The notes beneath the pieces were generated by a model, which worked only from the letters and a program-made list of their open reading frames with translations, was not told where the DNA came from and searched no databases. From the NCBI RefSeq assembly GCF_004345245.1, contig NZ_SLUQ01000002.1, positions 606,105 through 670,104 on the forward strand: DNA of 64,000 nucleotides. Direction: 5' to 3'. Positions 25,890-27,413 of this stretch are shown here, piece by piece. Position 1 is the stretch's first letter. The number at the start of each line of letters is the position of its first letter. Source of the stretch: Rhizobium sp. BK251 (GTDB taxonomy: Bacteria > Pseudomonadota > Alphaproteobacteria > Rhizobiales > Rhizobiaceae). Position numbers and translations under genes: made by a program.

Positions 25890-26114
25890 TTATGACGGGC
25901 GGCCGACGCGCTGCTTCAGCCATTCCAGCACGTAGAGCCTCAGCGCCGAGGAGAGATTGCTCTCGCCGGGCCGCCGATCGTCTATTTCGGAGAGCAGTGC
26001 GGCCAGCGGCATGGACCGAATGCCGGCAATCGCCTTGAGTTCTTCCCAGAAGGCATCTTCCAGCGAGAAGCTGGTGCGATGCCCATGGAGCGTGGCGGAG
26101 TGCTTTCGGATCAT
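25890..26114 (-). CDS. Ribbon-helix-helix domain protein
   Basis: A 74-residue protein matching the RHH_4 type seen in alphaproteobacteria: the N-terminal strand HRTSFSLEDAFWEELKAIAG, the linker IRSMPLAALLSEIDDRR and the helix NLSSALRLYVLEWLKQR. Such proteins are presumed DNA-binding dimers. It lies last in a minus-strand row ssrA - sspB - DUF4169 - RHH, 66 bases from the DUF4169 gene, and ends seven bases from the convergent AsmA gene. Confidence 0.85.
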   Translation of the reverse strand: MIRKHSATLHGHRTSFSLEDAFWEELKAIAGIRSMPLAALLSEIDDRRPGESNLSSALRLYVLEWLKQRVGRPS

Positions 26115-26180: not shown

Positions 26181-26375
26181 TCAGTCGTCCTTCCCGTCCT
26201 TTTCCAGGCGGCCCTGGCCGTGGCTCTTCTCGGCCTTTTCATTGAGCGCTTCGGTCAGCTTCTTCTCGGCCTTGGTGCGGCCGAAGCTGATGCGATTCTG
26301 TTCGGCTTGCCGCTCCTTTTCGGAGCGGGCCTGCTTCTTGCGGAATTGGCGCAGATTGACGATTTCGGCGCTCAT
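26181..26375 (-). CDS. DUF4169 family protein
   Basis: A 64-residue, very basic and probably helical or disordered protein that fits DUF4169: AEIVNLRQFRKKQARSEK, then QNRISFGRTKAEKKL. Function unknown. ATG 26375 has AGGGA six to seven bases upstream. It lies 42 bases after sspB on the same strand. Residues 5-15 (IVNLRQFRKKQ) resemble the last 11 residues of SspB (VVSLDAFRKKQ), the part of SspB that binds ClpX; the two genes even share 14 identical bases there. This raises the possibility that DUF4169 is a ClpX-docking protein. Confidence 0.85.
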   Translation of the reverse strand: MSAEIVNLRQFRKKQARSEKERQAEQNRISFGRTKAEKKLTEALNEKAEKSHGQGRLEKDGKDD

Positions 26376-26417
26376 CAAAAATCCCTGCTGTCGTGGGGAG
26401 GGGATCTGCCTCGTGGG

Positions 26418-26930
26418 TTATTGCTTCTTGCGGAAGGCGTCGAGCGAAACGACAGAGCCCTCCTTCTTTTCGTCACCGGCGCTCTTTGCCTGCGCCTCGT
26501 CCTCGGCCTTCTCCGCCGGGGCGACGGGATAGGCGGTGATCTCGCCTTCGGTTTCCTCTTCCTCGCCGCTCAGCGGTACGTCGAATTCGAGCTCGAAATT
26601 GACGGACGGATCATAGAAGCCGCGGATGGCATTGAACGGGATCGAAAGCTTCTCAGGGACATCGGAGAAGGAGAGGCCGATCTCGAAATGAGCCTCGGTG
26701 ATCTTGAGTTCCCAGAACTGGTGCTGGATGACGATCGTCATCTGCTCGGGATACTTTGCCTTGAGGTGCTGCGAAATCCGCACTCCGGGGGCGCCGGTCA
26801 GGAAGGTGATGAAAAAATGATGATCACCGGGCAGGCTGCCGGTCGCGGCAACCTCGGACAAAACCTTACGGATCACACCGCGAAGCGCGTCCTGTGCGAG
26901 AATGTCGTAGCGGATATGGTCCTGCCCCAT
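26418..26930 (-). CDS. sspB: SspB family ClpXP adaptor
   Basis: Alphaproteobacterial SspB delivers ssrA-tagged and some other proteins to the ClpXP protease. The 170-residue protein has a conserved substrate-binding domain (residues 1-120: LPGDHHFFITFLTGAPGV, YPEQMTIVIQHQFWEL, IPFNAIRGFYDPSVNFELEF), an acidic flexible linker (GEEEETEG), and a short conserved tail VVSLDAFRKKQ that would dock on the ClpX N-terminal domain. It lies just downstream of ssrA on the same strand; a hairpin with a U tract at 26997-27027 separates them, so sspB probably has its own promoter or receives read-through. Confidence 0.93.
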   Translation of the reverse strand: MGQDHIRYDILAQDALRGVIRKVLSEVAATGSLPGDHHFFITFLTGAPGVRISQHLKAKYPEQMTIVIQHQFWELKITEAHFEIGLSFSDVPEKLSIPFNAIRGFYDPSVNFELEFDVPLSGEEEETEGEITAYPVAPAEKAEDEAQAKSAGDEKKEGSVVSLDAFRKKQ

Positions 26931-27027: not shown

Positions 27028-27054
27028 GATGATACATGATTTCGATTGGGCGGA

Positions 27055-27377
27055 GAAGGTGAAGGCTTCTGTTGCCAGGTGCCTTCGAACCCCGCCTGCC
27101 GGTGCGAACCGTCAGGACTTTATTTGAAGTGTCACACCGCCATTAGGCAGCGAGACGAGCTTCCGCATAGTTGTCGTTTGCAACTACAATTTTAGCCCGA
27201 TAACGGTGGTACAATGCCGAGCGAAAAGTCGATCTTTACACCCTTGTCGATCCTGTTTCGCCCCCATCAAAAGCCGGCCTGCTGGCCAGTTTTTGGTGGA
27301 GGCGCCGGGTACCGCCCCCGGGTCCAATAGGTTTATTCCATCGCCCGTTTATCGCCATAGCCGACCCGAAGACCGGC
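27055..27377 (-). ncRNA. ssrA: Permuted two-piece tmRNA (ssrA)
   Basis: Transfer-messenger RNA that rescues stalled ribosomes and tags proteins for ClpXP. The gene is circularly permuted as in alphaproteobacteria. Read on the minus strand, the acceptor piece comes first (about 27377-27294) and ends CGGCGCCTCCACCA with encoded CCA. A 28-base spacer (27293-27266) follows, then the coding piece starting GGGGGCGAAACAGGATCGAC at 27265. GGGGGCG pairs with CGCCTCC to form the acceptor stem. The tag frame is 27181-27143: GCA resume codon, then ANDNYAEARLAA and TAA. This matches the known rhizobial tag. The 5' end is placed from the promoter; the 3' end (about 27055) is approximate. Confidence 0.93.
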
Positions 27378-27384
27378 AATAGGG

Positions 27385-27413
27385 ATATAGTGCCTTCCGC
27401 GCGTCCTGAAAAG
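27385..27413 (-). promoter_or_regulatory. ssrA promoter
   Basis: On the minus strand: -35 CTTTTC (27413-27408), spacer of 17 bases, -10 CTATAT (27390-27385). The -10 is a perfect match to the rhizobial consensus. The predicted start, near 27377, gives an acceptor piece of about 84 bases, as expected for two-piece tmRNA. Confidence 0.65.

Follow-up and report, generated by a model that had tools for sequence, protein, structure and literature searches.

The locus and its two terminal peptides

The window, which is the whole stretch of 64,000 nucleotides analysed from Rhizobium sp. BK251, carries on its minus strand the genes ssrA, sspB, DUF4169 and RHH_4 in this order, with 42 nt separating sspB and DUF4169 and 66 nt separating DUF4169 and RHH_4. 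The features considered here are as follows.

27052-27388, minus strand: ssrA (tmRNA), upstream of sspB, predicted by ARAGORN; same position in relatives
26418-26930, minus strand: sspB (PF04386), 170 aa; Pfam 3.9e-49
26421-26453, minus strand: C-terminal tail of SspB, residues 160-170 (VVSLDAFRKKQ), putatively ClpX-docking from the case of E. coli SspB
26181-26375, minus strand: DUF4169 gene (PF13770), 64 aa; Pfam 6.5e-21; calculated pI 9.8
26331-26363, minus strand: SspB-tail-like peptide of DUF4169, residues 5-15 (IVNLRQFRKKQ), from pattern search, profiles and alignment
26262-26306, minus strand: conserved patch of DUF4169, residues 24-38 (AxxNRxxFGRTKAEK), from alignment and AlphaFold2
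25890-26114, minus strand: RHH_4 ribbon-helix-helix gene (PF13467), from Pfam; a frequent neighbour of DUF4169

The original prediction had described DUF4169 as a small, basic protein encoded beside sspB and ssrA. The protein scored 74.8 bits with the PF13770 model (cut-off, 25), which places it in this family; PF13770 was its sole Pfam match with E up to 0.1, and no SspB domain (PF04386) was detected in it. SspB has the PDB relatives 2nys, 2qas and 2qaz. The tmRNA gene of the window was called permuted by ARAGORN, with the tag ANDNYAEARLAA, and tags such as ANDNNAKEYALAA were called in some relatives.

The start of DUF4169, MSAEIVNLRQFRKKQ, resembles the end of SspB. The predicted match of SspB residues 160-170 to DUF4169 residues 5-15 was confirmed in its positions and in its identity (seven of the eleven residues), and the 14 identical bases at 26422-26435 (sspB) and 26332-26345 (DUF4169), 90 bases apart, were also present when the sequences were read by eye. 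A degenerate DNA pattern for [V/I/M][V/I/M]-x-[L/F]-x-x-F-[R/S]-K had three matches in the 6.69-Mb genome (one for the reversed-pattern control), two of which were the SspB tail and the DUF4169 start. The third match falls within a 490-aa open frame, at its residue 426, and is thus non-terminal, so that a third protein with a terminal motif was rejected for this genome; judging from its composition, we take the 490-aa frame to be a putative antisense frame. Among 12 other genomes of the same genus, nine have both peptides about 100 bases apart, two have the SspB peptide without the DUF4169 peptide (G464 and G471), and neither peptide was found in one (G466, which is 82% complete). Other motif-like strings recur in relatives, e.g. 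VI[F/L]LWYFRK in five same-genus genomes.

Distribution, gene order and peptides in Alphaproteobacteria

We sampled 289 alphaproteobacterial genomes, with Caulobacter vibrioides among the controls. SspB was found in 266 and DUF4169 in 125 of them, and 123 of the latter also have SspB; no SspB match was found in the other two (G156 and G194), the DUF4169 proteins of which retain EIVNLNHVRK and ETVNLRLVRK. Outside Alphaproteobacteria, no DUF4169 was found among 199 genomes of the phylum, all 52 matches being inside the class. From the fetched stretches, peptides were recovered for 123 DUF4169 genomes and 133 SspB genomes (133 of the 266), including 100 genomes with both; the HMM used in the script missed DUF4169 in two of the 125 genomes (G243 and G252).

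In all 36 genomes with both genes on one fetched stretch, sspB preceded DUF4169 in the same orientation, and this linkage in 36 of 123 genomes is a lower bound because SspB positions were listed for part of the 266 genomes. Direct adjacency as a general trait was rejected, since the genes are directly adjacent in two of the 36 genomes and up to about 15.5 kb apart in the others. The same order and strand were found in all 80 named loci, which are the best 80 of at least 453 confirmed relatives and are mostly Rhizobiaceae by title. The gap was within 132 nt in 78 of these 80 loci; seven of the 78 gaps were negative, the script having mis-set the DUF4169 start, probably at GTG or TTG starts, of which seven were counted. 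Of the 80 loci, 56 were scanned for a tmRNA gene, and all of these had one upstream; in the class sample, where the flanks are short, 17 of 34 linked stretches had one. In 73 of the 80 named loci, RHH_4 follows DUF4169 within 400 nt and in the same orientation, and 45 of 123 class-sample genomes have the two on a single fetched stretch; RHH_4 could work with DUF4169 as a partner or be its client.

The residues at nine aligned positions of the two peptides, with the numbers of genomes, were as follows.

SspB tail (n = 133): 1, V 126; 2, V 111; 3, S 49, T 41, A 31; 4, L 128; 5, D 126; 6, variable; 7, F 125; 8, R 131; 9, K 117
DUF4169 start (n = 123): 1, I 61, V 45; 2, V 74, I 39; 3, N 114; 4, L 118; 5, N 56, R 50; 6, variable; 7, A 45, F 30, V 19, Y 11; 8, R 114; 9, K 121

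The part common to both peptides is [VI][VI]xLxx(hydrophobic)RK. A loose core, [VI][VIL]x[LV]xxx[RK][KR], was found in 127 of 133 SspB genomes and 101 of 123 DUF4169 genomes, whether the genes were linked or not; a strict motif was found in 25 of 36 linked DUF4169 vs 75 of 87 not seen linked. The families differ at position 5, which is mostly Asn or Arg in DUF4169 vs Asp in SspB, and at position 7, where Phe is general in SspB and present in about a quarter of DUF4169 (30 of 123). The family motif of DUF4169 is [IV][IV]NL[NR]x[A/F/V/Y]RK. The proposal that xVVxLxxFRKK is common to both families held for the two leading hydrophobic residues, for the Leu and for the Arg-Lys but not for FRKK, which is untypical of DUF4169 family-wide; since the class-wide likeness consists of the former residues, the FRKK identity in the window is a form of the close relatives.

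When nine-column peptide profiles were ranked against 15,084 other open frames, the SspB-tail profile placed 80 of 131 DUF4169 loci in the top 0.1% and 118 in the top 1%, and the DUF4169-start profile placed 115 of 144 SspB loci in the top 0.1% and 136 in the top 1%. These figures are a ranking and not a probability, because overlapping loci and non-coding frames are counted among the open frames; one high-scoring "other" frame (L155, genome G243) was a DUF4169 gene missed by the HMM. Judged from the sequences, the likeness is neither a chance nor a local one, and it is sound and wider than first stated.

The SspB and DUF4169 peptides of a genome did not covary in 100 pairs (mean similarity 18.74 vs 18.77 when shuffled). 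Among the genomes lacking a DUF4169 match, 30 of 33 retain VVxLxxFR in the SspB tail, as do 96 of 100 having one; the tail is therefore independent of DUF4169.

Two groups of departures were also observed. In one locus (L153, genome G022), SspB has VIALSNYRK and DUF4169 has IISLSQYRK, a single case of parallel departure with Ser at position 5 and Tyr at position 7. The SspB tails of L044, L046, L055 and L213 (four genomes of one family) and of L139 (G058) are VVTVDFGRKK-like, with Phe one place forward and Val replacing Leu; in that group, the DUF4169 proteins of G207, G010 and G058 have the usual spacing.

Conservation, spacing and predicted structure of DUF4169

In an alignment of 117 DUF4169 rows (six of the 123 sequences, lacking a usable start, were left out), the most invariant columns cluster in two patches, namely N7, L8, R12 and K13 (112, 116, 111 and 115 of 117 rows, respectively) and A24, N27, R28 and G32. 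The original prediction was to be refuted if DUF4169 homologues showed no enrichment of the motif. It is not refuted on this count, given these near-invariant residues and the ability of the two profiles to find each other, and its interpretation is supported in part. Among 81 close relatives (the window and the 80 named loci), N7, L8 and K13 are constant, R9, Q10 and R12 vary once each and F11 varies in nine, and Leu8 uses five codons; the residues are retained while the codons vary, so that the protein sequence is under selection.

The distance from the motif to the second patch is 22 in 102 of 123 DUF4169 proteins and 29-39 in seven genomes from two taxonomic families, in which the motif is kept (the spacing rule gave no value in 13 of the 123, and an artefact value of 44 for G233). 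The peptides at the longer spacing include NIVDFGSARK, NIVNLSSFRK, NVVDLASVKR and TLINLSDARR. Among 33 further DUF4169 loci from the same two families, 26 fit the motif rule and one lacked the core by rule, and six had a Lys variant of the NIVKIATFRK type when seen by eye. The shifts are mostly of +7, which is compatible with one longer helix as well as with a putative docking peptide separable from the rest of the protein; prolines are present in the +13 and +17 cases, and in G103, G190 and G263 they lie between the motif and the core helix. In one taxonomic family (L336-L365), mostly seven extra residues, i.e. two helical turns, were seen between the motif and the core. The DUF4169 protein of L028 (G224) is much extended at its C-terminus, and the last residues of this extension, RKSNVVSIFAPNIPDRK, are reminiscent of a second tail-like peptide.

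An AlphaFold2 model of DUF4169 from 56 sequences (mean pLDDT 79.3, pTM 0.40) has residues 1-7 extended, followed by helices 8-31 and 35-53 in a helical hairpin, so that patch 24-38 spans the end of the first helix, the turn and the start of the second. A search for related solved structures yielded no credible match (one chain of a GABA receptor, E 0.051), and Foldseek found no match to the model in the PDB. The SspB model was too weak for comparison (mean pLDDT 42, with a short helix at 164-168). Helix-capping rules describe an N-cap residue and a hydrophobic staple around a helix start. Because the modelled first helix begins at L8, Asn7 would be its N-cap, and V6 and F11 would presumably form the hydrophobic staple. 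The position equivalent to Asn7 is N, S, T or D in 119 of 123 DUF4169 and Ser, Thr or Asn in 94 of 133 SspB. The capping residues are consistent with a common local shape of the two peptides, and are equally the basis of the main alternative explanation treated below.

Predicted docking on ClpX and alternative explanations

The ClpX zinc-binding domain of this genome is identical at 35 of 39 positions (alignment count) to the one solved in structures 1ovx and 2ds5, which we take to be that of E. coli. According to PMC3983244, the C-terminal peptide of E. coli SspB, RGGRPALRVVK, which differs from the alphaproteobacterial tail, binds this domain and inhibits the degradation of other proteins using overlapping ClpX sites; according to PMC7226468, RssB and SspB compete for one ClpX platform, and LKxh is proposed as a consensus. 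L[RK]xh was found in 43 of 123 DUF4169 (96 if Asn is allowed), including residues 8-11 (LRQF) of the window protein, vs 0 of 133 alphaproteobacterial SspB tails, of which 119 have LDxh; the consensus thus suits some of the DUF4169 proteins but not the tail of alphaproteobacterial SspB. In our search of titles and abstracts on SspB, docking of the alphaproteobacterial tail on ClpX was not found. In the literature searched, DUF4169 was mentioned in one paper, as one differentially expressed gene, and no described function was found, nor was any mention of PF13770.

By analogy with E. coli, the alphaproteobacterial SspB tail would be a ClpX-docking element. DUF4169 may then dock by its N-terminal peptide on the same site of the ClpX zinc-binding domain. 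There it would serve as a small, accessory adaptor in competition with SspB, and the second patch, AxxNRxxFGRTKxEK in the predicted hairpin, would hold a partner or client. We regard this as the best single explanation and put its chances at nearly even; it rests on the shared peptide, which both families conserve and which persists in DUF4169 over the changes of spacing, and on the gene order. The differences at positions 5 and 7, the lack of covariation, the +7 shifts, the lower frequency of the strict motif in linked genes, the occurrence of DUF4169 in G156 and G194, the absence of L[RK]xh from SspB tails and the possibility of reading the motif as a helix-capping sequence, with Asn7 at the modelled helix start, speak against docking. 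A more elaborate and rather doubtful form of the proposal is that DUF4169 is a second docking-tail protein, an N-terminally tethered adaptor that brings a possibly nucleic-acid- or ribosome-bound partner to ClpXP and swaps with SspB; the ssrA-sspB-DUF4169 block would then combine a tagging system with a switch for which adaptor ClpX heeds.

The best rival is convergence on a helix start, in which both peptides are hydrophobic-staple and N-cap beginnings of the form [VI]-[N/S/T]-L-x-x-h-R-K and DUF4169 is unrelated to ClpX. The modelled helix start directly after Asn7, the frequency of capping residues in both families, and the differing, non-covarying peptides favour it. However, capping alone would not require the two families to have the Leu and the Arg-Lys in common, or SspB to end in a conserved tail. 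Moreover, matches to the bare pattern are very rare in this genome, and the prolines of G103, G190 and G263 part the motif from the core helix. We consider this convergence unlikely, but it remains a serious contender.

Docking could also make DUF4169 a pure competitor, which delivers nothing and lowers SspB-dependent degradation. The shared peptide and the position of the gene beside sspB in close relatives would suit such a role, as would the blocking of other ClpX clients by the SspB-tail peptide and SspB in E. coli (PMC3983244 and PMC7226468). The second invariant patch would then be needless, however, and two of the 125 DUF4169 genomes have no SspB match; we consider this role improbable.

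A peptide near the N-terminus of UmuD contacts the ClpX N-domain. DUF4169 might accordingly be a ClpXP substrate tethered by its N-terminal peptide, as UmuD is in E. coli, and direct contact of UmuD and other substrates with the N-domain is described in PMC3983244. However, the window DUF4169 ends KDGKDD, without a C-terminal Ala-Ala, and UmuD differs in sequence and fold; we hold this possibility to be quite remote.

In comparison with known adaptors, DUF4169 would share a docking site with SspB, the ClpXP adaptor for ssrA-tagged proteins and its neighbour in Rhizobiaceae-type genomes, and has the SspB-like terminal peptide of such zinc-binding-domain-docking proteins, save at positions 5 and 7. 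It differs from SspB in that the peptide is N-terminal instead of C-terminal and in being a short, basic protein with a helical model and no SspB domain. RssB, in contrast, belongs to the response regulators and uses its C-terminal domain for docking (PMC7226468). LarA (DUF1150), a regulator of Lon, is also a small protein of alphaproteobacteria that was once a DUF, and it too acts on a protease by a terminal peptide, but it belongs to another family and targets Lon through its C-terminus (PMC10665427). If docking is true, the DUF4169 family would become a partner of ClpXP open to a straightforward binding test and an unrecognised participant in bacterial protein quality control, the alphaproteobacterial ClpX-docking peptide would gain a sequence definition, and such a peptide would work from either end of a chain.

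Finally, a recent DNA copy of the sspB 3' end at the DUF4169 start, to which the 14 shared bases might point, is hardly credible, since throughout the class each family has a consensus peptide of its own, whether or not the genes are linked, and the matching bases span codons for shared residues only; the word "copy" in the original prediction was, for the former reason, too strong as a DNA history.
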